A stretch of 64,000 nucleotides of DNA from NCBI RefSeq assembly GCF_010211765.1, contig NZ_PDWO01000007.1, positions 62,001 to 126,000 on the forward strand. The letters run 5' to 3'. Positions within the stretch are counted from its first letter, which is position 1; each line of letters begins with the position of its first letter. Shown here in pieces: positions 1,895 to 63,948 of the stretch. The DNA comes from Pseudoxanthomonas kaohsiungensis. GTDB lineage: Bacteria > Pseudomonadota > Gammaproteobacteria > Xanthomonadales > Xanthomonadaceae. The position numbers and the translations under genes are program-made. The notes under the pieces are model-generated. The model was not told the origin of the DNA, ran no database searches, and saw only the letters and a list, made by a program, of their open reading frames with translations.

Positions 1895-3427
1895 TCAGGG
1901 ACGGAAGGAGGATTCAGGCTCTTCGTGCTCGTCGAGCTCTGCCGGCTCGACGATCGGCTTCGCCGGCGCAACCGGCTTGAGCGGCAGCTGGCCGACGACA
2001 GGCAGATCGCGCAGGTGCGCACCGATCGCCTCGCCCAAGCCCTTGGCGTGGTTGAACAGGATCGACTGGCCCAGCGCTTCGTGCGCCACCGATACGGGGA
2101 ATCCGTTGACCAGATAGTCGGGGATGCCCTTGGCTCGCGCGTGCTCGACCGGCGTCAGCAGACGCTGCAGTCCGTCGTCGCGGCCGAGCCTGACGTCCGT
2201 TTGACGGACTCGCGCATACCCGCGTGTAAGCCCGTTCACCTCCGTTGCAGAAGCATCGACGACGTTGGGCTTGAAGTTCTTTCCGGCCGCCGCATCACGC
2301 AGCGCTTTGTCCGCCAGGTACTCGTATGCGCGCCAGCGCGGATCGTCTTCGCCGATGTCCTCCAACGCCTGGTCCAGCGAGGCGTACTGGCGGGCGTACG
2401 TGGGCACCGACTCGATGTCGAAGCCTTCGGCCAGGCCGCGCGAGATGCCGATCAGCCACCAGCGGGTGCGGTTCTCCAGACTGCCGGCTTGCTCGTTGTC
2501 CAGCAGGGCCTCGTACATGACGTAGCCCTGCGCATTGAGGTAGGACATGAAGATGCTATAGGTGGCCGAGCCGCGGGCATCGGCCACGTTCTCGCTCACG
2601 ATCACCGACGGGTTGACCGCGTCGATGATGCGCAGCGCGCCGTACACGGCCAGCGCGTCGGTCGGATGGTCTTCCGGATTGTCCAGCTTGCGCTTGGCCT
2701 TGCCGGCCTTGCTGTGCGCCGTGCACGGCAGCGACAGGCCGACGATGTCCTGAGACCCGAGCAGCTGCGGCTCCAGCTCTTCGAGCGCGGCTTCGTACAG
2801 CCGGGTGTCGGCGGTGATCGCGGGGTTGTTCACCGCGGCGATCTCCAGGTAGCGGTGATCTCGGTCGACGATCCAGTCCACACGCGATTCCAGACCCTGG
2901 GCCTTGATGCCGTCGTGCAGCGCAAGGGTGGAAACGCCGGCGCCGGCGCACAGCGTGCCCTCGGTCAGGAACCCCTGCGCCACGTGCTCGCGCGTGCGCC
3001 TCTCGCGGGCTTCGATCGCCAGCTCTACCGGATGCAGGTCGAACACGATCTCGCCGGCCGCCAGCGTGGCGCGGACGCGGGTGCCCTCGCCCAGCACCTC
3101 GGCCAGAGCGCCGCCGGTGACGTCGATGATGGGGGTGCGGCGCACCTCCCCGTCTTCGACCTGACGCTGCCGCTGGGAGACCGTGCGATCGCCGTTGGGA
3201 TCGAGCTTCAACCGCACCTGGCGATTGACCAGATCCAGTTCCACGCGGAAGCGCTCACCCGGCTTGAAGCCGCAGCGGTTCAGGCGAAGGCCTTCCAGCC
3301 ACAGCCGCGGGTTGCCTCGGTTTTGCCCCAAACGGGTGTAGCTCACCTGGGCATGCGCGCCGACGCGCCGCGGGCCCGTCGGGCGCTCGCTCGGATCAAT
3401 CAGGGTACGGATGCGACGGATCTGCAT
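1895..3427 (-). CDS. C5-cytosine DNA methyltransferase
   Basis: Predicted to transfer a methyl group from SAM to C5 of cytosine in DNA. Motifs in order: SAM-binding TLCAGAG (about residues 158-164), catalytic LSLPCTAHS with the nucleophile Cys near 235, motif VI SENV (279-281), an R-T-R segment like motif VIII, and late motifs LTPVEHARAKGIP and EALGQSI. About 150 extra residues precede motif I, unusual for small Dcm enzymes. The chosen start (MQIRRIRT) overlaps the upstream stop as TGATG; the longer frame upstream is antisense-like. No restriction endonuclease is adjacent, so it is probably an orphan used for self-protection on transfer. It ends in FRP. Confidence 0.88.
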   Translation of the reverse strand: MQIRRIRTLIDPSERPTGPRRVGAHAQVSYTRLGQNRGNPRLWLEGLRLNRCGFKPGERFRVELDLVNRQVRLKLDPNGDRTVSQRQRQVEDGEVRRTPIIDVTGGALAEVLGEGTRVRATLAAGEIVFDLHPVELAIEARERRTREHVAQGFLTEGTLCAGAGVSTLALHDGIKAQGLESRVDWIVDRDHRYLEIAAVNNPAITADTRLYEAALEELEPQLLGSQDIVGLSLPCTAHSKAGKAKRKLDNPEDHPTDALAVYGALRIIDAVNPSVIVSENVADARGSATYSIFMSYLNAQGYVMYEALLDNEQAGSLENRTRWWLIGISRGLAEGFDIESVPTYARQYASLDQALEDIGEDDPRWRAYEYLADKALRDAAAGKNFKPNVVDASATEVNGLTRGYARVRQTDVRLGRDDGLQRLLTPVEHARAKGIPDYLVNGFPVSVAHEALGQSILFNHAKGLGEAIGAHLRDLPVVGQLPLKPVAPAKPIVEPAELDEHEEPESSFRP

Positions 3428-4359
3428 CAGCCCATCCTCGGCGCTTCGGACTGCTCGTCCTCGAACTGCGGCTTGGGCTGCTTGAGTAGCCCACTGGCCT
3501 CGACGCGCTCCATGATCCTGGCATGCCGCATGGTGCACCGGTCGTGGAACATGAAGTACCGGTCCTCCACGCGCGCATAGATCGTGGTGATCAGACCGCT
3601 GTAGCGCTCTGCGAATTTGAAGGATTCGGCCTGGTTGGAACGCACCCAGCCCTCAGGCGGAAGCGCGTCACGCGCGTCGTCGAAGACGGCTTCCGAGATC
3701 TCCCGAACCGGCGTAATGCACGCCCGCTCGATACGATCGACGGCCTCGCTGAGCGTGTACAGCTTGGCCTCGGGGAACCGCTCGCGCAGCACCGATAGCG
3801 GCGTGCCGCTGATCTGCAGGATCGCACCGTCCTCGTGCGTCCATCCACCGATTACGTCGTAGATGCTGCGGTCGTCAGGCCGGGCATACACCCCGACCTG
3901 CTCGCCCGGCAGAGGCCACAGCATGCCGTCGAAGACCTCCCGTGTCTCACAGCAGGCTCCGACTGCATGCATGGCCACCTGGCCGCTGGCCAAGTCGGTC
4001 ACGGTCTGCGCAGCCGTGATCTCCCCTTCGCACCAGGTGCGAGTACGGATCCCGTCGACGGCCTCGAAGGTCTCGGTGTTGGCATGCACCACTTCGTGGT
4101 ACTGCCCGCGAATGGGCTGGCCCGAGCCTTCCTGAAGCTCCGCCTCGGTGGCCGGCAGCTTCAAGTTCAGTTCGCCGGCCCAGCTGGCCAGCTCGCTCGC
4201 GCGTCGGAAGCTCCTGTGAGCCGTCGCGCCGTCGACCAGGACGACGTACCGATTGCCATCGTTGTACTCGTCCGCGTAGGTCTGCGAATGGACCGTGAGC
4301 GAAAGGTTCCGGTGCAGTTCCACCCGCGGCTCCGGCAGCTGCTGGATCGAGGCAGACAT
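3427..4359 (-). CDS. hypothetical protein, 310 aa
   Basis: Soluble 310-residue protein of no recognised family, between the methyltransferase and another unknown gene, coupled to both by TGATG overlaps. A Cys-Cys pair (GACCETRE) and later single cysteines are visible, but no classical zinc motif. Composition is acidic overall with a charged C-terminus (EDEQSEAPRMG). The tight coupling to the methyltransferase hints at a shared role, which is inference only. Confidence 0.75.
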   Translation of the reverse strand: MSASIQQLPEPRVELHRNLSLTVHSQTYADEYNDGNRYVVLVDGATAHRSFRRASELASWAGELNLKLPATEAELQEGSGQPIRGQYHEVVHANTETFEAVDGIRTRTWCEGEITAAQTVTDLASGQVAMHAVGACCETREVFDGMLWPLPGEQVGVYARPDDRSIYDVIGGWTHEDGAILQISGTPLSVLRERFPEAKLYTLSEAVDRIERACITPVREISEAVFDDARDALPPEGWVRSNQAESFKFAERYSGLITTIYARVEDRYFMFHDRCTMRHARIMERVEASGLLKQPKPQFEDEQSEAPRMG

Positions 4360-29574: not shown

Positions 29575-29976
29575 CTACCCGGCGGAACCCGCCTTGGACC
29601 GGCGGGTCCTGATCGAGGCCAGGTACGGCCCTCGCCGGGTGGCGCATCCGCAGTTTGGGTCGCCGCACCCCTCGGAGCCGTCGTCGAGCGGATCCACGCC
29701 GCGCGACCCCCTGGCTTCCGTGGCCACCCTCCTCGCCTGCTCCGCCGCTTCGCGGCGGCTCGCCAGCACATACACCCAGACCATGCGGCCAACCGGCCCA
29801 TCCAGACAGCAGACCTCCTCGCTTTCGGCGACACGCTCACCGATCGCGGCCGGAACCCCCACGTTTGAGGGCGCCAGGTGCCATCGCGCACCAAGTTTGG
29901 ATGACGTCACCCGCACCAGGCTTGAATCTGCCGACAGAGCCGCCATTACCGTCGCCGCACTCACCGAACTGGTCAT
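29575..29976 (-). CDS. hypothetical protein with Cys motif, 133 aa
   Basis: Protein-like 133-residue frame starting MTSSVSAATVMAAL. The middle (HLAPSNVGVPAAIGERVAE, GRMVWVYVLASRREAA) is followed by the compact Cys motif GCGDPNCGCATR and a basic tail. The motif could bind a metal. The start is either 29982 or 29976. The competing frame 29559-29894 is Arg-rich and looks like a shadow. No family was recognised. Confidence 0.5.
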   Translation of the reverse strand: MTSSVSAATVMAALSADSSLVRVTSSKLGARWHLAPSNVGVPAAIGERVAESEEVCCLDGPVGRMVWVYVLASRREAAEQARRVATEARGSRGVDPLDDGSEGCGDPNCGCATRRGPYLASIRTRRSKAGSAG

Positions 29977-30476
29977 CCACATCCCTCACGCATTTGGACC
30001 TGCAGCGTGCAACAGCAGCACGCTCTGGACCGCCAACAACCCAGGCTGCCAACCAACCTGGTCCCACCGCCCCCAAAATTAGGGGCGCTTCCGGCGGCCA
30101 ACCTGCCCCGGCTGATATCGCACACCCAGCCATGCCACCGTCTAGCCCATTCGCCGCCGATACGAGGGTCGGACCTAGAGAACGCAACTCCACCGGTTGG
30201 ACGACGCATCTCTGCCCTCGCTATCGGGTCTGGACATGTTCGAGCACGACCGCCTCGCTCGCCTGACCTCCCGCCCACGTGCCCCGACTCCTTGGGCGTC
30301 CAACGACCGCGCTTTCAGCCACCTACATCCCGATCTGCCAACTCACCACCCCAAATCCGGTGGCCAAACACTGCCGTTCGTGGTTCTCGACTCTCGGACC
30401 AACACACAGCACAGCGGCACTGGATCCGACGCCCACCTACATTCTGACCTGCCCTCCAAACTCCCCACTTACGACG
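29977..30476. other. about 500 bp without a convincing gene
   Basis: Several frames are open but Pro/Arg-rich and not protein-like. It holds one outlying copy of the GCCCCnnAATTnGGGGC palindrome (30069-30087) and short degenerate direct repeats: CCACCTACAT at about 30319 and 30433, and ACCAACACACAGCACAGC-like sequence near 30405, similar to bases inside the start of the gene at 30477-31160. This suggests a decayed duplicate of that gene. Confidence 0.4.
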
Positions 30477-52775: not shown

Positions 52776-53984
52776 TCAGCGCTGCGGGGCCGCGTCTTTA
52801 AGGAAGAGGATTCCGATGTCGATGCCAGCCGCGACCTTGATGGTCCTCTTGCGATTGGCACCTTGCGAAAGTTGCTGGCTGGCCGTGCGTCCGACGTTGC
52901 CCACGCCGATCTCTACCAACTGACGATCCGTGTACGCGTCCTTCTGGACGACGACGGTCTCGCCTGTGGTGATCACGTTCTCCTGCTGACCACCGCGCAG
53001 CAGGCCATCGGCATAGCCTGAGAGGAATGAGCCGATGAAGACGCTCAGTCCCCGAGAGACATAGTGGTTGTTGACGTCGGTGGCCAACGCGGCACGGTAG
53101 TCCTTGCTCGGATCCACCGCCCACGCCTCGACCGTACGTGCTGATGCTTCGCCGGGCACGGTCATGGAGCTGAACTGCACACCGACGGCCTTTGCCTCGG
53201 CGCCGGCTGAAATCTGGCCGATCAGCTTTGCGCCTTGGAACGGGCCTGGTTGACGAATGGTAGCCACCACCGGCCCCGGCTCATCGGTATTGATGGCCGT
53301 GTCCAGCGTGCCGTAGACCATGTCGCCTGCTCGGATGTCCGCTTCGCCTTGCCTGTTTGCAGGCGCAGGCGCGTGGTCGCTCGTGGCTGCACCATCCAGG
53401 CCTGCTGCAGGCGCGTGCTGTTCCTGCTTGGCCATCGTGAACGAGGCATGCGACTGGTTGGCCCAATAGCCCTGGATCCGTCCCAGTTGCTTTCGCATGT
53501 CCTCCTGACGATCCGCGATGGCTTCCTGGTGGGCCGCCAGCTGCGCCTGGTAGGACGGGTCCGCTGCCGGTGTGGGTGCAGGCATCGGCACCGGGGCGAC
53601 GGACTGCTGCTCCGGAGCGCTCGGCACTGCGGTCTGCAGCGGGTCAGCGATGGAGGAGTCCACCTGGCCGCGAGGTACCGGGATCGAGCTCTCGCCACTG
53701 GATAGGGCCTGCTTGGCCTGATCCTGGTTGCTCTGCGCGATCAGCGCGTCGTACTCGGCGGTGGACGCGGTGGCCTTGGAGTAGTCGCGCTCCACGGTCG
53801 GCGGAGGTGCGCCTACATCGCTTGGACCCGTCAGCTCGGAAGAGCTCGTCTTGCGCGACAGGATGAAGCCCAGCACCACGATGATCACGACCGTGAGGCC
53901 GACGGTGCCGAGAAACAGCGTTCGCGTCTTCGGGTTGGACAGCGCCTTCTTGACGTTCGATGCCTTGGAGTTGGTCTGGGCCAT
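52776..53984 (-). CDS. dotG: DotG/IcmE (TraO)-type channel protein
   Basis: A 402-residue protein with one membrane segment (TLFLGTVGLTVVIIVVLGFIL), a Pro/Ala-rich spacer and a VirB10-like C-terminal domain (GDMVYGTLDTAINTDEPGPV, LSVFIGSFLSGYADGLL, AAGIDIGILFL). It is the core-complex VirB10 analogue spanning both membranes. Much shorter than Legionella DotG (1048), like IncI TraO, because the repeat region is small. Confidence 0.9.
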   Translation of the reverse strand: MAQTNSKASNVKKALSNPKTRTLFLGTVGLTVVIIVVLGFILSRKTSSSELTGPSDVGAPPPTVERDYSKATASTAEYDALIAQSNQDQAKQALSSGESSIPVPRGQVDSSIADPLQTAVPSAPEQQSVAPVPMPAPTPAADPSYQAQLAAHQEAIADRQEDMRKQLGRIQGYWANQSHASFTMAKQEQHAPAAGLDGAATSDHAPAPANRQGEADIRAGDMVYGTLDTAINTDEPGPVVATIRQPGPFQGAKLIGQISAGAEAKAVGVQFSSMTVPGEASARTVEAWAVDPSKDYRAALATDVNNHYVSRGLSVFIGSFLSGYADGLLRGGQQENVITTGETVVVQKDAYTDRQLVEIGVGNVGRTASQQLSQGANRKRTIKVAAGIDIGILFLKDAAPQR

Positions 53985-53986
53985 TC

Positions 53987-54955
53987 TCAGTATCCGGACA
54001 GAGTCACGTTGGCGGTCTCGTTGCTCGGACCTGCCATAACCACGACAACGGGAGTCGGTGGGATCACATAGACGGCCGACCCATCGGGCGCCTTGACCAT
54101 GTCGATGAACGCCGGCGACAGCAGGGGCGTTTCAGCCGGCGTCCGGACGTAAAAGCGATCGTTCATCGCCCAGGCCTGCACCGCCCCACTGCTGGTAGTG
54201 AGCGGGCGCGACCCATCGGGCGTCATGCCGGCGAGCATCGTGAGTGTTTCGCTGCCGGCCGCCGCGGGCAACCCCACGGCTTGGACAACACCCTTCGCCG
54301 TCACGCCTTTCACGCGCACGTCCACGCGCGAATCCACTTCGCGCTGGCCAGAGATCAGGGTGAGCACCACCGGAACGGACACCCCATCCAGGCTTACGAC
54401 GATGTTGCCGCTGGCGTAGATCGTCTTGGGCGAGAGCGAGAAGAAGTTGGTGGTGCCATCCGCGTTGGCGGCGTGCGTCAGGGTGAAGCTATCCGGAGCG
54501 CCGAGATCTACGTTGCGGATGCTCAGTGGATTCCCGAGCTGGTCCATGAAAACCACTGGCGTGACATGGTTCACGAACAGCCGCACGACCGGAGGGGTAG
54601 CGCCCGGTGCCAGGTTCGCCACCACGGAGGATGAAACGACTTTGGGCGTGTAGCGCGGTTGCGCAGCAGCGGCTCTTTCGGCCTGCTCCATTGCCTGACC
54701 CATCTCACGAATCTGTTGCGGCGACAGAGGCGCTACATCCTCCCGCAGTCTTCGGAATGACTCTTGACCGACGTCCGGCAGCGGAGGCAGAGCGGGAATC
54801 TCCGCCGCTACCGCCGGGACCTGTGACGAAGGCTGGGCTGGCGCCGGCGCTGCGCTCGTAGGCGCAGAACCGGGGGTGGGGATCTGCTGGCCGTTGGCGT
54901 GGCCGATCACCAGCAGAAGCATCAAGGCGCATGAGCTGCAGGTCAGACGCAACAT
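53987..54955 (-). CDS. dotH: DotH/IcmK (TraN)-type outer-membrane-core protein
   Basis: A 322-residue precursor with a signal peptide (CALMLLLVIGHANG) and a beta-rich C-terminal domain (VVRLFVNHVTPVVFMDQLGNPL, FSLSPKTIYASGNIVVSLDGVSVPVVLTL) of the DotH/IcmK type. It is the VirB9-like core protein. The ATG at 54955 has AGGAG; a GTG two codons earlier overlaps the DotI stop. Confidence 0.9.
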   Translation of the reverse strand: MLRLTCSSCALMLLLVIGHANGQQIPTPGSAPTSAAPAPAQPSSQVPAVAAEIPALPPLPDVGQESFRRLREDVAPLSPQQIREMGQAMEQAERAAAAQPRYTPKVVSSSVVANLAPGATPPVVRLFVNHVTPVVFMDQLGNPLSIRNVDLGAPDSFTLTHAANADGTTNFFSLSPKTIYASGNIVVSLDGVSVPVVLTLISGQREVDSRVDVRVKGVTAKGVVQAVGLPAAAGSETLTMLAGMTPDGSRPLTTSSGAVQAWAMNDRFYVRTPAETPLLSPAFIDMVKAPDGSAVYVIPPTPVVVVMAGPSNETANVTLSGY

Positions 54956-54957
54956 GG

Positions 54958-55638
54958 TCACTGCTCCTGCACCACGTACTGGGCGATGCCGACGGACGAC
55001 TTGTTCTCGTTGGTTCGCTCAAGCATGGCGGTGACGATTTGGCGCTGGGTCGCCATGCTCTTGCCGTCCGCGCCACCCTGATAGGTGAGCTGGATCGGCA
55101 TCTGCACTTCCCAGGTGAACACGCCCTTGCGCACGCCGCGGCGCACGACGACAGCAGGGCCGGTCGCCACCGAGGAGACGATCAGTCGCTGCTCGCGGAC
55201 CTGGGTCAGTGCACCCGATCGGGTCAGGGCTGCTGCGAACTGCTCCCAGCCGTTCTCCGTGAAGCATTCCTGCGCCTCACCAAGGCGCTTCTGGTAGTCC
55301 ACGAAGTTGTAGTCATTAGCCTGGCTAACGCAGACCTTGAAGCGCTCCAGCAGCTGGCCCTGGCTGACCACCGGGTCGGAGACAGCCTGGATGGGTGCAA
55401 TCCGACCGTTGTTGTCGACGGTGAAGTATTCGCGCTTGCCTTGGGCGAGCAGGTAGCCCTGATAGGCGACGACACCACCCAAGCCGCCGAGGAGCAGGAT
55501 CATCAGCACGATGGCCATGATCAGCTTGCCGAACCAGTGCTTATAGAAGGCCGCCTTCTCCAGCCCGGCTGCCTGCATGAGCAGGCTGGCAGCTTTCAGC
55601 GAATCCGACTCGGCCGCTCGTGGACTCTCAACCGCCAT
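54958..55638 (-). CDS. dotI: DotI/IcmL (TraM)-type inner-membrane protein
   Basis: A 226-residue protein with one membrane segment (GKLIMAIVLMILLLGGLGGVVAY, about 40-62) and a periplasmic C-terminal domain of the DotI/IcmL/TraM fold (REYFTVDNNGRIAPIQ, EVQMPIQLTYQGG). The ATG at 55638 has AGGGAAAG and follows an operator copy. First gene of the core T4SS operon. Confidence 0.88.
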   Translation of the reverse strand: MAVESPRAAESDSLKAASLLMQAAGLEKAAFYKHWFGKLIMAIVLMILLLGGLGGVVAYQGYLLAQGKREYFTVDNNGRIAPIQAVSDPVVSQGQLLERFKVCVSQANDYNFVDYQKRLGEAQECFTENGWEQFAAALTRSGALTQVREQRLIVSSVATGPAVVVRRGVRKGVFTWEVQMPIQLTYQGGADGKSMATQRQIVTAMLERTNENKSSVGIAQYVVQEQ

Positions 55639-55653
55639 TATTCTTTCCCTGTT

Positions 55654-55670
55654 AACTTTCGTTGCAGTAT
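55654..55670 (-). promoter_or_regulatory. recurring 17-bp promoter/operator motif, T4SS operon
   Basis: Minus-strand ATACTGCAACGAAAGTT, preceded by T (TATACT -10 box), 15 bases upstream of the dotI ATG. It is the predicted promoter of the core T4SS operon (dotI to 45038). Confidence 0.6.
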
Positions 55671-55695
55671 AGGAAAAGACAATAGCCATTAATAG

Positions 55696-56565: not shown

Positions 56566-58044
56566 TTAAACGGCGAGAGCAGCGACGGGCTCGGCCCGCT
56601 CGGAAGCAAGGGTTTCGACCTGAGCCATGAATTCTGCCGAATCGCCGTTCAAGGAGATCCACAGTTCTTGCAGCTGCTTCTTCGGGGGCAGCAACCGCTC
56701 CGCGAGGAAGTTACGGAACAACGCCTGGCAGACGGTATCGCCTGGCGCCTGCTGCCACTTGGCCAGCATTGGGCTGTTGTCAGCGCTCAGGCGCATTTCA
56801 AAGTCGCTTTCGAGCTGACGGCGCTCGTCAGCCGGCAACTGCTGGAACACCTGCATGGACACCCCTCGATACATGGGGGCGAACGCGTCTGTGAGCTCCT
56901 GGAGGCGGTGGGCCTCCTGCGCACTCTTGCGCTTTGCCTCTTCATGCTCACGCCGTTTGACCACCAGGCTCGACTCTTGCCGGGTGTCCTGCTTCCACCC
57001 CTGCAGGCACGTCAGGAAGTACGGTGCCAGCTTGCTCGATTCGACCTTACCTAGCGCAAAGCGCTGGGCAACGTAGTCCGCCACGATGGTGACCTTCTCG
57101 TCGCCGTGCCGCTTGACCGACTCAGCAGCCTGGTCCGCGGTAAGCATGAAGTCGTTAACCAGCCGCACCAGCAAGACCGGGGCATCCGCCGGAAGCGCAG
57201 CAGCCTCGTTGCCCTGCTCGCCGTCTTCCATCTGAGCTTCGGAACCATCGGGGCCGCCGAGCGCAAAGCGCATCGCAACCACTTTTCGGCGATCGTGCAT
57301 GATCTCGGGTGACGGGCTGATGCTCGTGTGCTCCGACACCTGTTCCACCGCGGGAACGATCACCTTTTCCCTGAAGCGGCGCCAGTCGTCGTAAGTCTCG
57401 GCGGTTGCACCCAGCAATGTGCGCCAGGTCGCGATCGGGTACCACGGTGTGAACCCGAGCTTCTTGAAGCGCACCGCGTTCTCGTAGAGCGCAACTGCAG
57501 GCGAAGACGTCAGCGGCCGCATCTCCGCCAGGTCAAGGTACGCATACCGGTGTGGATGATGCAGCTTCTCGCGCAGCAACTGGGAGAACTCGTAGAAGCA
57601 GATACCGTCGCGGAAGGCGACGGCCGCAAGGGCCGTACACGCCTCCCATACCTCGGCGCCGCGTTCCGGAATGATGCTCCACTCGATCGTAGTGGTCATC
57701 AACTCGCGCATTGAGCCTTTGAGCGCCGCGGTGTTCTTCGAGTTGAAGCCCACGATCGTCATCAGGTCCTGCATGGGGATGCGATGGACCTTTACCTCAG
57801 CTCTTGGCAGATCGTCGTAGGCGCGCAACACCAGGGCATTGAAGACCTTGCGCTGCAGAGCGGTGAGGCTGTTGCCGCTGTGGACCGCAGGCGTGGCCTT
57901 CTTCAGCGGGATCGTTGGGACCTGCGGCATCTCCGAGAAACCGAGCCCGATCAGTTCGCCCTGGTTGACGCCGACTGTCTCGCGGCGCTGATAGCGATCG
58001 ACATCCCTTAGCCGTGAAATTCCGCGCTGGAGTGGGTCTGTCAT
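56566..58044 (-). CDS. replication initiator, Rep_3-type
   Basis: A 492-residue initiator. The N-terminal two thirds show the winged-helix Rep_3/RepB pattern (NSLTALQRKVFNALVLRAYDDLP, MQDLMTIVGFNSKNTAALKGSMREL, YAYLDLAEMRPLTSSPAVALYENAVRF, WRTLLGA). The C-terminal 200 residues are helical and unique. Rep binds iterons and opens the origin; its iteron-like sites lie directly upstream at 58119-58326. The chosen ATG at 58044 (MTDPLQRG) begins protein-like sequence, though it lacks a clear ribosome site. Confidence 0.85.
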   Translation of the reverse strand: MTDPLQRGISRLRDVDRYQRRETVGVNQGELIGLGFSEMPQVPTIPLKKATPAVHSGNSLTALQRKVFNALVLRAYDDLPRAEVKVHRIPMQDLMTIVGFNSKNTAALKGSMRELMTTTIEWSIIPERGAEVWEACTALAAVAFRDGICFYEFSQLLREKLHHPHRYAYLDLAEMRPLTSSPAVALYENAVRFKKLGFTPWYPIATWRTLLGATAETYDDWRRFREKVIVPAVEQVSEHTSISPSPEIMHDRRKVVAMRFALGGPDGSEAQMEDGEQGNEAAALPADAPVLLVRLVNDFMLTADQAAESVKRHGDEKVTIVADYVAQRFALGKVESSKLAPYFLTCLQGWKQDTRQESSLVVKRREHEEAKRKSAQEAHRLQELTDAFAPMYRGVSMQVFQQLPADERRQLESDFEMRLSADNSPMLAKWQQAPGDTVCQALFRNFLAERLLPPKKQLQELWISLNGDSAEFMAQVETLASERAEPVAALAV

Positions 58045-58118: not shown

Positions 58119-58326
58119 GCCCCAATACCTGGGGCGTTGCCTGTTGTTGTCTTCTTGTTTAGAGAAAGAGCGTTTGCTTCTGTTTAGGCCACGCTAAGCG
58201 CTTGATTTGCAAAAAGAAAAATGGAGTTGTGCCCCTGGAATTGGGGCGAACCGCCCCCGACATTGGGGCGCAAGCGGCGGTCGTTGCCCCCGAAATTGGG
58301 GGGGTATTGCCACCAAAATTGGGGCG
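58119..58326. repeat. phased iteron-like palindromes, GCCCCnnAATTnGGGGCG
   Basis: Copies begin at 58119, 58231, 58253, 58286 and 58309. The last four are spaced 22, 33 and 23 bp, close to whole helical turns, as for initiator-binding iterons. They share the core of family B repeats found across the next 5.5 kb. Confidence 0.7.
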
Positions 58327-58423
58327 AGGAATGCGCAGATCAGGCCGATCGCCACCAGATATGGGGTCTTTGCCCCTGGACTGCCCTACATGATGCCGAA
58401 CTTCGGGCCTATGGGCTCGTTGC

Positions 58424-58510
58424 GCCCCAACCAGTGGGGCGATGTGATTTAACATGAAATCACATGATGTGATTTGACATCACGTGCAATGATGTGATTT
58501 CATTGCACCT
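58424..58510. repeat. origin-proximal palindromes of both families
   Basis: A family B copy at 58424-58441 is followed directly by a cluster of family A heptamers GTGATTT/AAATCAC (58441-58510), including ATCACATGATGTGAT. It abuts the parA ribosome site and may be its operator. Confidence 0.65.
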
Positions 58511-58546
58511 ACGAGGTCGGTGACCGACATTTAAAAGGAGGGGCGC

Positions 58547-59269
58547 GTGGAACAGGACCAGCAGCAGCAGGACCAGGTGCAGGGGCGCGACGAGCAGCAC
58601 GCAAAGGCAGCTCCCAAGATCGTACTCGTCGGCGGCGAAAAGGGTGGCACCGGCAAGACCACGATCGCGGCCAACATCGCCGTGTGCCTGGCCAAGCAAG
58701 GCAAGGACGTCCTGCTGGTGGACACGGACCCGCAGGGCACGGCCACGATGTGGGCGTACTACAGGGATGAAGCCCAGATCGAGCCCCGGGTGACGTCGAT
58801 CCAGAAGCAAGGCAAGAGTGTGGCCAAGGATCTGACCGACCTAGCCACCCGCTACGAATACCTGGTGGTCGACGCCGGCGGCCGCGACTCGGTCGAGCTC
58901 CGGTCGGCGATGGTCGTGGCGAACGTGATGATCGTGCCGATCCAGGCCTCCTCGTTCGACGTGTGGACGTTGAGGCAGATCGACAATCTGGTCGAGCAGG
59001 TGCAGGCCGTCCGTGCCACGTTCCACGCTCCATTGGACGTGAGGATCCTGATCAACCGCGGCTCCACCAACGTCCACAGCAAGGACAGCGAGATGGCATC
59101 GGAGGTCGTCAAGGACTTCCAGAACTTCACGCTGATGCAGACCGAGCTGCACGACCGGCGCTCGTACCGCACGACCGCCACGGCCGGCAAAAGCGTCATC
59201 GAGGGTGATGACGGAAAGGCCATGGATGAGTTCAACAAGTTGTTCTCGGAGATCTACGACAATGGCTAA
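58547..59269 (+). CDS. parA: ParA-type partition ATPase
   Basis: A 240-residue ParA/MinD-type ATPase from a GTG with an AAAGGAGG ribosome site. The deviant Walker A GGEKGGTGKTT is at about 29-39, LLVDTDPQGT at 55-64, and VVDAGGRDS later. The first 22 residues are Gln/Asp-rich and probably unstructured. ParA moves plasmid copies apart together with a centromere-binding protein. Followed by an overlapping partner gene. Confidence 0.92.
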   Translation: MEQDQQQQDQVQGRDEQHAKAAPKIVLVGGEKGGTGKTTIAANIAVCLAKQGKDVLLVDTDPQGTATMWAYYRDEAQIEPRVTSIQKQGKSVAKDLTDLATRYEYLVVDAGGRDSVELRSAMVVANVMIVPIQASSFDVWTLRQIDNLVEQVQAVRATFHAPLDVRILINRGSTNVHSKDSEMASEVVKDFQNFTLMQTELHDRRSYRTTATAGKSVIEGDDGKAMDEFNKLFSEIYDNG

Positions 59270-59651
59270 GCCCTCCCCCGCTGTGCGTATGCCGCCCCAG
59301 ATGGGCGGCGCCCCCCAGATGACCGCTGAGGCTGCCGTTGCCGCCGCGAATTTCGCCGCGGGGGCTGATCGCCGCGCCGACGGGTCGGCAGGCTCCTCCA
59401 CTCCCTCTGCCCGTGCCGCGGCTGCTCCTGCAGATCAGCTTCCGTGGGAAGGCCTGGATGACAAGCGCCGCAGCCCGGCACACCAGATGCGGATGACCGA
59501 GAAGGAGCTGGCGACCCTGAACTGGCTCGTGCTGAACAAGCCGGGCACCAAGTCCCGTCACCTCTACATGTTGGAGCTCATCCAGAAAGGCATGGCTGCC
59601 GACGTCAAGCTCCTTACTGGCGAGGACGTGGTGTTCACCGGCAGGGATTGA
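59262..59651 (+). CDS. putative ParA partner, 129 aa
   Basis: Overlaps the parA end by 8 bases; the ATG at 59262 begins MAKPSPAVRMPPQMGG. A long Ala/Pro-rich N-terminus precedes a compact C-terminal domain (QMRMTEKELATLNWLVLNKPG, SRHLYMLELIQKGM). Size, overlap and basic C-domain fit a small ParB-type centromere-binding partner, but no HTH or ribbon-helix-helix is certain. Terminator just downstream. Confidence 0.7.
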   Translation: MAKPSPAVRMPPQMGGAPQMTAEAAVAAANFAAGADRRADGSAGSSTPSARAAAAPADQLPWEGLDDKRRSPAHQMRMTEKELATLNWLVLNKPGTKSRHLYMLELIQKGMAADVKLLTGEDVVFTGRD

Positions 59652-59676
59652 GCGGGTTGCATGCGGGTCCGAAACA

Positions 59677-59700
59677 AGGGCGCCTCCGGGCGCCCTTTCT
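59677..59700 (+). terminator. rho-independent terminator after par operon
   Basis: 8-bp stem AGGGCGCC / GGCGCCCT with loop TCCG and a TTTCT tail, 25 bases after the stop. Confidence 0.8.
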
Positions 59701-59717
59701 CGTTTGCGACGCAGAGG

Positions 59718-60324
59718 TGATGTCAAATCACATCATGTGATTTGACATTACGGGCGTGGTGGCCTCCCCACTCGCCTGGTTCGGCGTCGACCCCTGCCCT
59801 CGGATTGGGCGGCGCCATATAATGTGATTTGAAATCATGTGATTTCAAATCAGAATGCTCCGCCCCCGGAATTGGGGCCTCAGCGGCCACCGTCCCCTCC
59901 CGTTGCGACATGATGTGATTTGAAATCACTTTACTCCGCCCCAGAAATTGGGGGCGCCTCGCCCGGGGTTCGCACGGTGTGATGTGGGGATCCTGCGCCC
60001 CTGGAGTTAGTGATGTGATTTCAAACGATGTGATTTCACATCAGTGCCTAGCGCCCCCTTGATTGGGGTGCTGTCTGCATGCGGGGGTGATTTGAAATCA
60101 CATCAAATCACCTCTCGGCGCGCGAGCGCCCCTGAATTTGGGGCAGCCTGAGAGGCCAAGCCGCCTGGAGGGTAGATCGGCTCGGCACCGCGTCCCCTGA
60201 AGGCGGTCGAAGATCCATGTTCGGTCCGAGATTCGGGGTGATGCCACGCCGTATGCAAAGGGGTGCCCCAATTTGTGGGGCATTCCCTTACACATCAAAT
60301 CACATCAAATCACGTGATTTCACT
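59718..60324. repeat. dense field of interleaved palindrome repeats
   Basis: No gene in these 600 bases. Family A clusters: 59718-59749, 59821-59852, 59911-59931, 60011-60043, 60088-60112, 60292-60324. Family B copies: 59862, 59938, 60053, 60128 and 60265, each about 18 bp. The two families alternate, roughly one unit every 75-160 bp. Candidate centromere or incompatibility region. Confidence 0.75.
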
Positions 60325-60389
60325 TTTTGGTGAAGCACGTCCGCGGTACAATCGCACCCTCCACTCCCACAGTGCACCTGGCCGTATCA

Positions 60390-60728
60390 ATGCTCAGCGA
60401 GACGATCCCGTTCAGGGGGTTCATCACTTTGGCCTTTGCCGACCAGGTTGGCCGGACAGAGCTGGCGTTGGGCGTTGCTGGCTTTCTGGACCTGACCCTG
60501 ATGGATCAGCAGTTCGAGGAGCTCAGCGCGGTGATCGGCGCGAGTGCCTTCACCGCCAGGAAGGTAGTTGGCGGGCAGGTGATCGCACACAAGCCCGTTT
60601 CTGTCGAGCTCGTCGAAGGCCTGCTGCAGGCGCCCGTTGCAGAGCTGATCCAGCGGGCCCGCAAGAGCCAGGAGCAGGAAGAGCTCGAACTGGAGAGGGC
60701 GATCGGCATGGGGTGCCCGGCTTTCTGA
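60390..60728 (+). CDS. hypothetical protein, 112 aa
   Basis: Starts MLSETIPFRGFITLAFADQ and has a beta-then-helix appearance with a long charged helix at the C-terminus (ELIQRARKSQEQEELELERA). A TACAAT -10 box with TTTTTG 17 bp upstream lies near 60330-60355, which supports transcription from here. An earlier start at 60327 overlaps that promoter. Unknown function; it is flanked on both sides by family A repeats. Confidence 0.6.
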   Translation: MLSETIPFRGFITLAFADQVGRTELALGVAGFLDLTLMDQQFEELSAVIGASAFTARKVVGGQVIAHKPVSVELVEGLLQAPVAELIQRARKSQEQEELELERAIGMGCPAF

Positions 60729-60752
60729 TGTGAAATCACATGATGTGATTTC
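60727..60752. repeat. family A palindrome cluster
   Basis: GATGTGAAATCACATGATG followed by TGATTTC; a near-perfect inverted repeat between the converging ends of the 60390 and 60757 genes. Confidence 0.65.
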
Positions 60753-60756
60753 AATG

Positions 60757-61566
60757 CTATTCGCTGGGTACAAGGTGTCCCGTAAGGGCGTATAGCTGGT
60801 CGTAGTCCGGTGCGGGCACGCTCAACCACATCGCGGCGGAGGCGGGCAGGCATTGGACCTCCGGACCCTGGGCAAGCCGCTCCATCAAGCCCTTGGCCTC
60901 TTCGGCGCTGTAGCACGCGAGTCGCAGGTGGCCTCCGGTCAGCTCCGCTCGTGTCCCCAGCGCCTCGCCCAGCCGATCGAGGAACCGGCTCGTGTCCGGA
61001 GCTGCCTGCCGCGTGAGCCCAGACTTCGCGTCCGCCAGTGCAGCCTCCAGGCTCCGCACCGACCATCGGTGCCCGAGCGCCTGGCGCGTCCAGTGCTCCT
61101 GTTGTTCCCGGGGGAGCGCCGCCAAGATTCGCCCATGTCCCGGCGTGAGGTGGCCACGCCGGATGCATTGACGGATCAGGTCGCACGAATCGCTGAGACG
61201 GGTCAAGCGGCTGACGTTTGCCGGGGTGGTGCACAGCAATCCGGCGACCACGAGGTTAGGCAGGCCAGCGGCGCGGAGCAGGGCACAGACCTCCGCGGCG
61301 GTCACCCAGTCCACCGTAGGGCCCGTGTCCGCCCCTTGGAGCGCCTTGGCGTCCGTGTCGGAGCATTCCACCACCCAAGCCTCCAGAAGCGCCGCAGAGC
61401 CCGCCTGCAGGGCTCCGCGGCCCCACAGCAGCTCCCAGGTGGCCGAACCACAGCGGCGGGCGACGACACGCCGCTGTGCGGGCACGAAGCCGCCTTCGGC
61501 CGCGTCAGGGTCGGGGAGCCAGATCGAGGAAGCGGGGATGGAGAGGGGGGTTGGGATCTTTGCCAC
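60757..61566 (-). CDS. ParB/KorB-like DNA-binding protein
   Basis: A 269-residue protein from a GTG. The middle has the ParB/KorB helix-turn-helix and following helices (NVSRLTRLSDSCDLIRQCIRRGHLTPGHGRILAAL, then WSVRSLEAAL). The N-terminus keeps IPASSIWLPD, like the ParB start, but the GERRYRA box is not evident. Two perfect CACGTG-centred palindromes lie upstream at 61577 and 61630 and are the likely binding sites. It is separate from parA and on the opposite strand. Confidence 0.78.
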   Translation of the reverse strand: MAKIPTPLSIPASSIWLPDPDAAEGGFVPAQRRVVARRCGSATWELLWGRGALQAGSAALLEAWVVECSDTDAKALQGADTGPTVDWVTAAEVCALLRAAGLPNLVVAGLLCTTPANVSRLTRLSDSCDLIRQCIRRGHLTPGHGRILAALPREQQEHWTRQALGHRWSVRSLEAALADAKSGLTRQAAPDTSRFLDRLGEALGTRAELTGGHLRLACYSAEEAKGLMERLAQGPEVQCLPASAAMWLSVPAPDYDQLYALTGHLVPSE

Positions 61567-61576
61567 TGGCTCTATT

Positions 61577-61594
61577 CCTTGCCACGTGGCAAGG
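61577..61594. promoter_or_regulatory. parS-like palindrome 1
   Basis: Perfect 18-bp palindrome CCTTGCCACGTGGCAAGG, 11 bases upstream of the ParB-like start. The CACGTG centre and flanking TT/AA resemble chromosomal parS. Likely ParB-like binding site, with autoregulation. Confidence 0.7.
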
Positions 61595-61629
61595 ATGCTA
61601 AGCGAAATGGCGCTTCAGAGTCCAGTATC

Positions 61630-61645
61630 CTTGCCACGTGGCAAG
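61630..61645. promoter_or_regulatory. parS-like palindrome 2
   Basis: Perfect 16-bp palindrome CTTGCCACGTGGCAAG, 53 bp from the start of palindrome 1 (five helical turns). Same core. Confidence 0.7.
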
Positions 61646-62359
61646 AAATCGGGCGCAGTGTGGCGTTTCGCAGGACGAATGCAGTGCGATTGATCGTCCT
61701 CGCGCTCCGACTTGCCGAGGGTGCCAGGAGCCCGCAGTGGCCTCGAATGCACTCACAATGCGAAGTGCATTCCCGGCTTACGCCTGCCCAACGAGCCGCC
61801 GGGCGGCCATACACTGCACTTAGCCCCCAATTTTGGGGGCGGCATTGAGTGAATTGAAATCACATCAAATCACTATCGAGTCCTGCGCATTCGCGCCCTG
61901 GTGATCCGGCGCAGCCGCGGCTCTGCAGCGCGAACCGCGGGGCCCCCCGGTGGGGCTCTAGGCGAGGGCACGCGGATGCGCTTCGTTCCGACTCGCTCGA
62001 TGACGTGCGATCGCTGTGGCCGTCGTTCGCAGCATCCAAAGCACTGCGCCGTTCGGCGGGCGTCGCACTTAGCCCCCAATTTTGGGGGCGCAGGTTAGGG
62101 CGTGGTAAGTGAAATCACGTGATTTCACTTTTGGGGCGCCGGCGCTTGCGGCCACTCTTGGGCGACCAGGCTTTCGCGCCTCAGCGGCAGCCTTGGGGCA
62201 TCGCCGGCCGGGTGCTTGCTTCGCACCCGGCCGTGACTCAGTGGTGCGGCTGCGACTTCTCGGTCAGCTCGGGCGAGCGTGAGCTGTGCTGGGACACACG
62301 CACTGCGACCCCAAAATTGGGGGCGCACATGCAGTGCAATCAAATCACGTGATTTGAAA
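61646..62359. repeat. intergenic region with repeats, no gene seen
   Basis: About 700 bases without a convincing gene. Family B copies at 61823, 62072 and 62307; family A clusters at 61851-61873, 62108-62130 and 62339-62363. The first two B copies lie in a longer shared block (GCACTTAGCCCCCAATTTTG then GGGGCG) at 61817 and 62066. Confidence 0.6.
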
Positions 62360-63352
62360 TCATTTTGGACGACTGAAGGGCTTGGGCTTGGCCTTCAGGC
62401 GAACCGTGGCGACCTCTTCCGGGAGGGGCTGGACCAGGACGCGGCCGCGACCGACCCGGGCAGGGGCGTAGTTCCGGATGGCCGTCTCGTCAGAAGCCTG
62501 GCCCAGAAGGGCGGCCACCGTCGCCGTTCCGTCGCCCGCGCTCTTGGCGTCGGCGGCGAACTGGTGGCGGAAGCTGTAGAGCGCCGGGTAGGACCGGCGC
62601 TTGCCAAGGACGCGCTGGGCGATCCGGCGTAGCGTCTTGCGCAGCGTCTCGGTGAGCCGGGCAAAGCTCTCGGCATCCCGGTGCCCGTCGACCAGCTCCA
62701 GCATTTGCTCTATCGATTCCAGTTGCTCGGGGCTCAGCGCCCCGAGCTTCAGGGTCCGGGTCTTCCCGTTGCCCCGCCCGTGCGTGTTCTTGGCGTTCTG
62801 CACCAGCAGGGCGGGCTCCCCTCCGGGGAGGGTGATGCGATCGGCGTGCAGCCACTCCCCTGGTCGTACCCCGACCAGGGAGGTGGCCTGGCACCAGGTC
62901 AGCAGGGCGCGGGCCGACGCAGACCGCGGCCCACGCATCTCCAGCTCGTTGGCGGACAGCTTCTGCAGGTGGTCGTAGATAGCCTGCAGGTCCGCGTCCT
63001 GGATCTGCTTGGCCTTGCGGGCGGATGTCCGGTTTGTCCGCCGCAGAGCTCCGGCCTGGCCTTCGCTGTCCAGGATCTGGATGGCGTACTGGATCTCTTG
63101 GGCGTCTTGCAGGCTGGGTGCTTGGCCCGCGGCGTGCTCAAGCTGGGCGCGAACGGCCGACTTGTATGTTTGCCATGTGCGCTTTGCGAGGTCGGGCTTT
63201 CGCTTGATCAGGTGCTCGACCAGGGTAATCGGGGCAACGTGTTCGGGTGCTTGGGCGCCTGTTGCATGGGCCGCTTGGGCGCGCAGCGACGCGAATGTGA
63301 TGGCGTAGAAGTGTTCGGTTCTCGCAGATCGGCTTCGTTGGGTGGCGGACAT
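62360..63352 (-). CDS. tyrosine recombinase
   Basis: A 330-residue tyrosine recombinase. An N-terminal SAM-like core-binding region (about 45-95) precedes the catalytic domain: Arg in GVRPGEW (near 163), YSFRHQFA (Arg near 262), GQASDETAIRNYAPA with the nucleophile Tyr near 295. The usual His of the H-x-x-R box is Tyr, and the second His is Gln, so it is an atypical member. Probably resolves plasmid multimers at the inverted repeat 23 bases upstream (63375-63409). Confidence 0.85.
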   Translation of the reverse strand: MSATQRSRSARTEHFYAITFASLRAQAAHATGAQAPEHVAPITLVEHLIKRKPDLAKRTWQTYKSAVRAQLEHAAGQAPSLQDAQEIQYAIQILDSEGQAGALRRTNRTSARKAKQIQDADLQAIYDHLQKLSANELEMRGPRSASARALLTWCQATSLVGVRPGEWLHADRITLPGGEPALLVQNAKNTHGRGNGKTRTLKLGALSPEQLESIEQMLELVDGHRDAESFARLTETLRKTLRRIAQRVLGKRRSYPALYSFRHQFAADAKSAGDGTATVAALLGQASDETAIRNYAPARVGRGRVLVQPLPEEVATVRLKAKPKPFSRPK

Positions 63353-63374
63353 GCGGGGTGTTTGGCCATCTGTA

Positions 63375-63409
63375 CATTAGTGGGACAGATAATAACTGTC
63401 CCACTAATG
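63375..63409. promoter_or_regulatory. putative recombination core site
   Basis: Perfect 14-bp inverted arms CATTAGTGGGACAG and CTGTCCCACTAATG around the 7-bp spacer ATAATAA. This is the layout of a tyrosine-recombinase core site (two arm-binding sites and a 6-8 bp crossover region). It lies 23 bp upstream of the recombinase start, so it may also be the operator. Confidence 0.75.
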
Positions 63410-63948
63410 CTTTGGGTGTGTGGATATCGCCTGCGCCTGCGCTCGGATGGCTCGAACACCATAGTTTGGCCACCTGGGGCGGAGTGGTTGGAGAACGGTG
63501 CTGTCCGTTGTGTGCTGTGAAATCACCTGAAACGAAATCACATGATGTGATTTGAAATCGTTTGTTGCGCCCCAGAAATTGGGGCCTCAGCGTGATATCC
63601 GGGGGTTTGCGTCCGCTTCCAGGTGGGCCGGGGAGGGTGGTCGGCCTGATGCGCCCCCAAATTTGGGGCGTAAGGGCGTTGGTGATAGGGCGGTCGGGCC
63701 ATTCCCGTCTGCTCTGCTTACTCATACTTATAGATCGTGAAACGGTGGGGCTGCTGGCGAGGTGGTCAAGCGTGTTCAGGCTCGTGGGCAAGGGGTGGGC
63801 ATCGGCACGTGTCCACGGCTTGTCCATCACCCTGTACACCGGTCGCCGCGAGCGGCGATGTCCACGTCGGGGCGCCGTTGGGATCTGTGGCCGACCTGGC
63901 GCAGGGGAGCCCACGATCGCGAACAATAGGCAGCAATAGACCAGCCGT
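63410..63948. other. intergenic region with repeats, no gene seen
   Basis: Open frames occur but are not protein-like. It contains a family A cluster (63516-63560) and family B copies at 63569 and 63653. From about 63720 to 63948 I see nothing specific. Confidence 0.5.

Follow-up and report, generated by a model that had tools for sequence, protein, structure and literature searches.

A five-base lattice and palindromes that are probable Rep sites lie side by side in the maintenance region of a putative Pseudoxanthomonas plasmid

What reads the two families of short palindromes that crowd the maintenance genes in a stretch of DNA from Pseudoxanthomonas kaohsiungensis, and why do they stand together? 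The stretch, 64,000 nucleotides long and called the window below, corresponds to bases 62001-126000 of a 184,614-bp contig (NZ_PDWO01000007.1). A preliminary description divided the palindromes into family A, heptamers of GTGATTT/AAATCAC in short inverted groups, and family B, and proposed that two proteins bind them side by side, for example Rep with a partition or silencing protein. In this work, we combine motif counts, lattice scans, profile and structure searches and a comparison of related loci. Family A is a rigid lattice with a five-base step that also accompanies relatives of the neighbouring ParA and its small partner protein, and family B is probably a site of the Rep_3 initiator. 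As far as sequence comparison can carry the argument, we consider it rather probable that A is a partition centromere and operator, that B is a Rep site and that the joined A-B modules couple replication and segregation.

Two motif families confined to one region

We counted both families in the region 58119-63670, where they occupy the non-coding gaps, in the rest of the contig and in a background sample of 471 kb from other contigs of the same genome. GTGATTT/AAATCAC occurs 29 times in the region, against two occurrences in the remaining ~179 kb of the contig and six in the 471 kb, and ATGTGATTT/AAATCACAT occurs 18 times in the region and in neither of the other two. All 12 genome-wide matches to GTGATTTGAAATCA with at most one mismatch lie in the region; AAATCACNTSANGTGATTT was found in one of 398 genomes of the order, its own, at four places that all fall in the region. 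For family B, the pattern CCCC.{0,4}A[AT]T.{0,4}GGGG has 21 overlapping matches in the region, nine in the rest of the contig and two in the background sample, and a genome-wide scan for CCCCNNAATTNGGGG that allowed one mismatch lists 28 rows, overlaps and hits on both strands included, of which 21 fall in the region. The family is looser than first described: one side is often AATTGGGGC and the inner length varies. A lone good B palindrome lies far off, at 30069-30086, upstream of a minus-strand open reading frame (ORF; 29575-29982).

These counts bear out the claim that both families are nearly absent outside the region, and the estimates of about 12 A clusters and 16 B copies hold as well: we counted 12 clusters of at least two TGATTT/AAATCA hexamers, with no hexamer inside genes as drawn, and 16 B copies. 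The edge first placed at 58424 has to move, as B starts upstream of it, at 58119.

Family A is a lattice with a five-base step

The unit of family A is shorter than the heptamer first proposed, and its arrays form a rigid lattice in which T[G/C]A recurs every five bases. Cut at T[G/C]A, the array before parA reads TGAAA TCACA TGATG TGATT TGACA TCACG TGCAA TGATG TGATT TCATT. Of the 43 same-orientation pairs of GATNT words that lie at most 32 bp apart in the non-coding gaps, 42 are spaced by a multiple of 5, and pairs in opposite orientation fall on a single residue modulo 5 in 19/19 and 25/25 cases of the two kinds. A scan for T[G/C]A per 5 bp returned 12 arrays at a score of at least 4 and 10 at a score of at least 5, all in the region, and none in the rest of the contig or in the 471 kb of other contigs; twelve other periods (3 to 15) yielded one array in total in the region, at period 10. 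The twelve A arrays extend over 5.1 kb, and six of them share a single 0.68-kb gap (59652-60326) with five B copies.

The lattice accompanies a ParA and its partner

One lattice, at 58455-58502, stops 44 bp short of parA, so that the par operon is preceded by repeats in direct and inverted order:

58547-59269, plus strand: parA, 240 aa, with the deviant Walker A motif KGGTGKTT (AAA_31, E 1.5e-21)
59262-59651, plus strand: small partner gene, 129 aa, likely a ribbon-helix-helix centromere-binding protein, overlapping the end of parA

ParA also matches CbiA and, under the model cut-off (155 of 180 bits), NF041546 ParA_partition with E 1.6e-45; no helix-turn-helix (HTH) family was among its matches (best 25 of 54 in one library scan). 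As a small ATPase whose Walker A box is deviant and whose N-terminus lacks an HTH, it has the features of a type Ib ParA.

Close relatives of the partner are absent from the plasmids, genome contigs and viral contigs searched. Five other plasmids whose ParA is 44-50% identical carry a small gene at the same place, and a search with the alignment of those five small proteins yielded nothing in viral contigs but 21 loci in genome contigs, among them contigs of Methylococcales, Competibacteraceae and Myxococcota, with ParA immediately upstream in 19. F31, A35, P61-W62 and an R77-E80-L83-L86 stretch are common to all or nearly all members. The family profile weakly matches the Mnt repressor (E 0.027) and four of 20 members, the window protein not among them, weakly match the Arc family (best E 0.034); a ribbon-helix-helix fold is likely for the family.

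Three further loci deserve mention. The more distant ParA locus L137 encodes, at 3177-3428, a partner with an FxxGA motif; its annotation as a CopG-family regulator agrees with a ribbon-helix-helix fold for the wider partner family. At L141 (AP023241.1, BCG66097.1, 3365-4216) ParA and the partner domain are joined in one annotated protein (E 1.7e-38), whose Walker A box looks degraded; its surroundings showed no lattice. Of 198 family genomes, two matched the window partner, one being its own; the other, G041 (E 9e-5, one internal stop), was set aside, with a tblastn E of 1.1 and both ParA and lattice absent.

The five-base step recurs beside the partner's relatives, where sequences such as GTATGATATGATTTCATATCATAT precede parA. 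Across 17 partner-family loci, 106 of the 112 ATGA/TCAT pairs are spaced by a multiple of 5. An ATSAT cell repeated every 5 bp forms at least one array in 21 of 25 partner loci (none in L097, L101, L117 and L119), or in 21 of 26 once the L141 fusion is added; where ParA could be located, in 23 loci, an array directly precedes parA in 18. The 26 cases are not all independent, as L104/L108, L107/L109 and L115/L116 each share a genome or belong to near relatives. The mean for shuffled sequences was 0.0 arrays, and periods 4, 6, 7, 9 and 11 gave none; nor did ATSAT lattices occur in 29 other ParA loci (L065-L093, stretches of 3.5-3.7 kb taken from family genomes), in 13 loci with Rep relatives or in six more distant ParA loci (L099, L136-L140). 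At least three arrays are present in eight of the 25 partner loci, and L105 and L108 have up to five, scattered across roughly 2.7 kb, so that dispersal is not peculiar to this plasmid.

Several results weigh against assigning the lattice to this partner. The window protein has no Pfam match, aligns with the family over most of its length at a distant 13-26% identity, and yields a weak AlphaFold model with a mean predicted local distance difference test (pLDDT) score of 67 and no first strand, for which Foldseek returned nothing significant; prediction from the single sequence was poor. Against the 21-member profile it scores above all 2000 of its own shuffles, with E 0.078 for the 2001 sequences, which corresponds to about 4e-5 when scaled to a single target and is not significant for a database search. 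The cell definitions were drawn up after the data had been seen. With T[G/C]A scoring, which is stricter, 13 of the 25 partner loci reach 4 and eight reach 5, and one distant ParA locus, L137, also passes at 4 though not at 5 (2475-2492, just before parA); L141 and the remaining controls do not pass. Conversely, the relatives' ATSAT cell recovers one of the 12 window arrays, the other 11 failing because the window cells are GTGAT/ATCAC and those of the relatives ATGAT/ATCAT. What is common to both is the 5-bp step and the T[G/C]A core, with different outer letters. In our judgement the window partner is a distant but real homologue of the 21-locus family. Since the product of the gene next to parA is a likely ribbon-helix-helix partner of ParA, and a lattice stands beside that partner's relatives, family A is best read as its putative centromere and operator.

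Family B is probably a Rep site

Family B is densest just before rep, where five copies fall within 207 bp:

56566-58044, minus strand: rep, Rep_3-family initiator gene (Pfam Rep3_N, E 3.4e-12; Rep3_C, E 2.1e-7)
58119-58325: B cluster by rep, five palindromes (58119, 58231, 58253, 58286, 58309), no A array

The five rep-proximal copies belong to a 27-nt direct-repeat family spaced by 22, 33, 23 and 115, with 63-74% identity to the reference copy. The locus thus has the marks of a Rep_3 iteron replicon, namely Rep3 WH1 and WH2 domains and direct repeats adjoining rep. The best plasmid matches of the Rep protein are 30-34% identical over 77-89% of the query. We tested 13 loci with Rep relatives (roughly 25-37% identical in the aligned part) for CCCC-N5-8-GGGG upstream of rep, and found six copies in L122, six in L133 and five in L060, against 0.10-0.16 expected. 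In L060, from a genome of the same family (G243), rep and the upstream palindromes are very like those of Xanthomonas plasmids. DotI and DotH genes lie beside rep in L121, L122, L124 and L133, as they do in the window. The likeness of B to the CCCC-N6-GGGG palindromes before related rep genes of Xanthomonas and Stenotrophomonas plasmids suggests that it is probably bound by the Rep_3 initiator, as an iteron-type site, and the view that the array is unlike ordinary iterons probably does not hold for B. An iterated weight matrix for B drifted to a symmetric motif and was dropped.

The most durable rival, which we regard as fairly unlikely, keeps A as the partner's centromere and has B bound by another protein, be it the ParB-HTH protein, the product of the 60327 ORF or a host protein, so that B would mark regulatory spots. 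The two local candidates, and the palindrome that stands by one of them, are:

60327-60728, plus strand: ORF, 133 aa, start uncertain (60387 used for the cluster and pairing analysis), with no family match at E 0.01 or better
60757-61566, minus strand: ParB-HTH protein gene, 269 aa (HTH_ParB, E 1.5e-10)
61579-61592 and 61631-61644: two identical copies of the palindrome TTGCCACGTGGCAA, upstream of the ParB-HTH gene

Such a binder would account for the spread of B over 5.5 kb, far past an origin, and for the 10 of 13 Rep relatives that lack the palindromes, the three with them being mutually close. L121 and L135 have repeated CCCCATAA iterons instead; in the plasmid pND6-2 (L121) a 28-nt repeat family starting CCCCAT has seventeen copies before rep. 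Neither palindromes nor CCCCATAA iterons were found in L123, L124, L129, L130, L131, L132 and L134 (fewer than 200 bp testable in L124 and L130), and L061 gave no CCCC-N5-8-GGGG upstream of rep in the palindrome test, the only one applied to it. In L129, L131 and L132, Rep shows 36-37% identity along roughly half of the protein, so that Rep similarity alone does not predict the motif. On the other side stand the concentration of B before rep and the similar palindromes before rep in three related plasmids or contigs.

The ParB-HTH protein is the less apt as a binder of B for having a palindrome of its own. No further copy of TTGCCACGTGGCAA exists in the contig or in the 471 kb of other contigs, and this third motif of the region is probably the operator or a parS-like site of that protein. 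The consensus parS of the Spo0J type is GTTTCACGTGAAAC, of which the contig holds no exact match.

A arrays and B copies stand together

Outside the rep cluster, B is mostly paired with A rather than alternating with it as first described, and two arrays stand without B:

58424-58502: module 1, before parA, B 58424-58440 and A lattice 58455-58502 (A hexamers from 58445)
59718-59745: A lattice without clear B
59825-59878: module 2, A 59825-59852 and B 59862-59878
59911-59955: module 3, A 59911-59928 and B 59938-59955
60011-60069: module 4, A 60011-60043 and B 60053-60069
60088-60144: module 5, A 60088-60110 and B 60128-60144
60265-60322: module 6, B 60265-60281 and A 60295-60322
60726-60753: A lattice without clear B, between the 60327 ORF and the ParB-like gene
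61823-61872: module 7, B 61823-61840 and A 61850-61872
62072-62127: module 8, B 62072-62089 and A 62110-62127
62307-62362: module 9, B 62307-62324 and A 62340-62362
63518-63585: module 10, A 63518-63555 and B 63569-63585
63653-63669: B copy, nearest A 99 bp away

Ten of the 11 B copies outside the rep cluster lie 4, 9, 9, 15, 15, 16, 16, 17, 17 and 22 bp from an A cluster. When copies were placed at random in free non-coding DNA (20,000 trials), ten fell within 40 bp in 0.145% of trials (P 0.00145) and summed A-B gaps were equally small in 0.055% (P 0.00055); the test was devised after the sequence had been seen. By eye the AATTGGGGC arm mostly points away from A (of the eight of ten copies labelled, seven point away and 62307 toward), an orientation that we do not rely on as support.

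Could A and B be independent, their nearness a product of confinement to the same short gaps? The distance from B centre to the nearest lattice step ranges from 19 to 30.5 bp and shows no common phase, so that a fixed helical relation was rejected, a point that counts for independence together with the two arrays that lack B and the single B copy 99 bp off. Random non-coding placement is as close in 0.06-0.15% of trials, and we regard independence as unlikely.

It is improbable, in our view, that A and B are instead operators of a plasmid-wide regulon with no centromere role. Plasmid-wide transcription regulators are known, as KorA and KorB of RK2. The arrays do lie in non-coding DNA, one of them before parA, and R388 (PMC3098194) and pSM19035, with its omega protein (PMC9499535), carry such sites in several maintenance promoters, according to the parts of those papers used here. 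Against this, the packed gap at 59652-60326 offers few genes to regulate, and in other loci the lattice is linked to the ParA partner.

That the modules are copies of one dispersed, functionless repeat is very improbable: the modules at 61823-61840 and 62072-62089 share 26 identical bases around B, likely from a recent duplication, but this is the sole shared word outside the A motif among the 14 best module pairs, the median longest shared word is 13 bases over 66 module pairs, and the rest of the genome holds no match to the A motif when one mismatch is allowed.

Genomic setting

Further genes of the window are:

52776-53984: TrbI-like protein gene
53987-54961: DotH, type IVB secretion system (T4BSS) gene
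54958-55689: DotI, T4BSS gene
62360-63352, minus strand: tyrosine-recombinase-like gene (Phage_integrase, E 0.0095, under the family cut-off)

The grouping of Rep_3, ParA, ParB-HTH and T4BSS genes makes a conjugative-type plasmid the natural reading, with 58119-63670 as part of the maintenance region of a large plasmid of mating-pair-formation type I (MPF_I). No overlap between the two contig ends was found. The G+C content is 0.644, compared with about 0.70 for the 471 kb sampled elsewhere. Just before the tyrosine-recombinase-like gene, an inverted repeat at 63375-63409 (14-bp arms with ATTAGTGGGACAG / CTGTCCCACTAAT, 7-bp spacer) looks like a candidate crossover core site for resolving plasmid dimers. 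Tyrosine recombinase genes also lie near the ParA-partner pair in L094 and L136 (Nitrosococcus and Rahnella plasmids). Promoter and terminator scans stayed within about one standard deviation of shuffles.

Discussion

By gene order and the features of ParA, the system is type Ib-like; its apparent centromere, a lattice with a 5-bp step, is unusual, and its putative Rep/centromere modules are scattered. In the mechanism we propose, family A would be centromere and operator of the ParA (58547-59269) and its likely ribbon-helix-helix partner (59262-59651). Partner dimers would load next to one another on T[G/C]A steps exactly five bases apart, on alternating faces of the helix; on the A arrays they would repress parA, and their N-terminal tails would be presented to nucleoid-bound ParA-ATP and activate it. 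We propose repression and activation as type Ib (PMC5016525) and omega (PMC9499535) systems perform them in the accounts drawn on here. The rep-proximal B cluster would serve the origin and the control of rep, the other B copies being extra Rep sites, and the ten neighbouring pairs at 4-22 bp would bring Rep and the partition complex side by side. Copy-number control would most likely be coupled to segregation through Rep titration or plasmid pairing. Incompatibility caused by dispersed iterons is familiar from P1 incA and F incC.

Of the original suggestion of two proteins side by side, the pairing of Rep with a partition protein is backed by the comparison, namely by the lattice that goes with partner and ParA relatives, the B-like palindromes of three Rep relatives (set against the ten that lack them) and a closeness above random; a silencing protein is not needed. 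A wider statement, which we advance tentatively, is that a plasmid-partition family, spread over methylotroph-related and other bacteria as well as this plasmid, may use a 5-bp T[G/C]A lattice as its centromere, with partner dimers on both DNA faces at half-turn spacing, and that here ten of the twelve lattices would be joined to a Rep iteron, coupling copy number and segregation.

Several known systems resemble the window in part. The delta/omega system of pSM19035 combines a small ParA with a ribbon-helix-helix ParB and six parS, its direct and inverted box arrays lie over maintenance promoters, and its omega box WATCACW overlaps in letters with AATCACA of the window (PMC9499535, in the parts cited). 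Its boxes, however, are 7 bp long and consecutive, whereas the window period is exactly 5 bp, and those parts mention no Rep-type site beside each parS. Omega-type heptads were accordingly rejected for A, as T[G/C]A arrays at period 7 are absent from the region. TP228 ParF/ParG and other type Ib systems likewise have a ParA, a small ribbon-helix-helix protein and direct or inverted repeats upstream of the operon (PMC5016525); there, as far as the cited sections go, parH and a neighbouring operator lie upstream of the operon, in contrast to the window, where twelve arrays follow a 5-bp lattice and are distributed across 5.1 kb. In R388, the short stbDR repeats of StbA stand before the operon and in other maintenance-region promoters, but the sections of PMC3098194 used describe 9-bp direct repeats spaced by 2 nt and a StbA without homology to ParB-like proteins.

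On the replication side, the Rep_3 replicons of MPF_I plasmids (pND6-2 and those of Xanthomonas campestris and Stenotrophomonas) share with the window the Rep family, DotI/DotH by rep and upstream repeats with CCCC/GGGG arms. They differ in that, within the stretches compared, a ParB/Spo0J-type pair is present in pND6-2 and in the Xanthomonas plasmid but not in that of Stenotrophomonas, and their repeats stay by rep, whereas the window copies are dispersed and paired with A. ParB2 and RctB of Vibrio cholerae chromosome II belong to protein families that differ from those of the window. At the 39-mers of that chromosome, a partition protein acts at initiator sites and links replication with segregation, although in the part of PMC3688505 cited ParB2 competes with RctB for the same site, not for neighbouring ones. 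Other iterons are described for a Pseudomonas plasmid group (PMC10488154, in part) and are not used as support. Among the matches listed in open-licence PMC papers, we found neither a 5-bp lattice centromere nor a Rep-centromere twin array, a scope that does not exclude unlisted or subscription papers.

The strict lattice raises a structural question about the fit between adjacent dimers spaced by half a helical turn, where related centromeres have 7-bp or 9-bp boxes in the literature as cited (PMC9499535, PMC3098194). Paired Rep and centromere sites, if true, would open the connection of initiation control with segregation, which has long been debated for low-copy plasmids, to direct test. 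The lattice itself provides a sequence rule for finding such putative centromeres in other plasmids.

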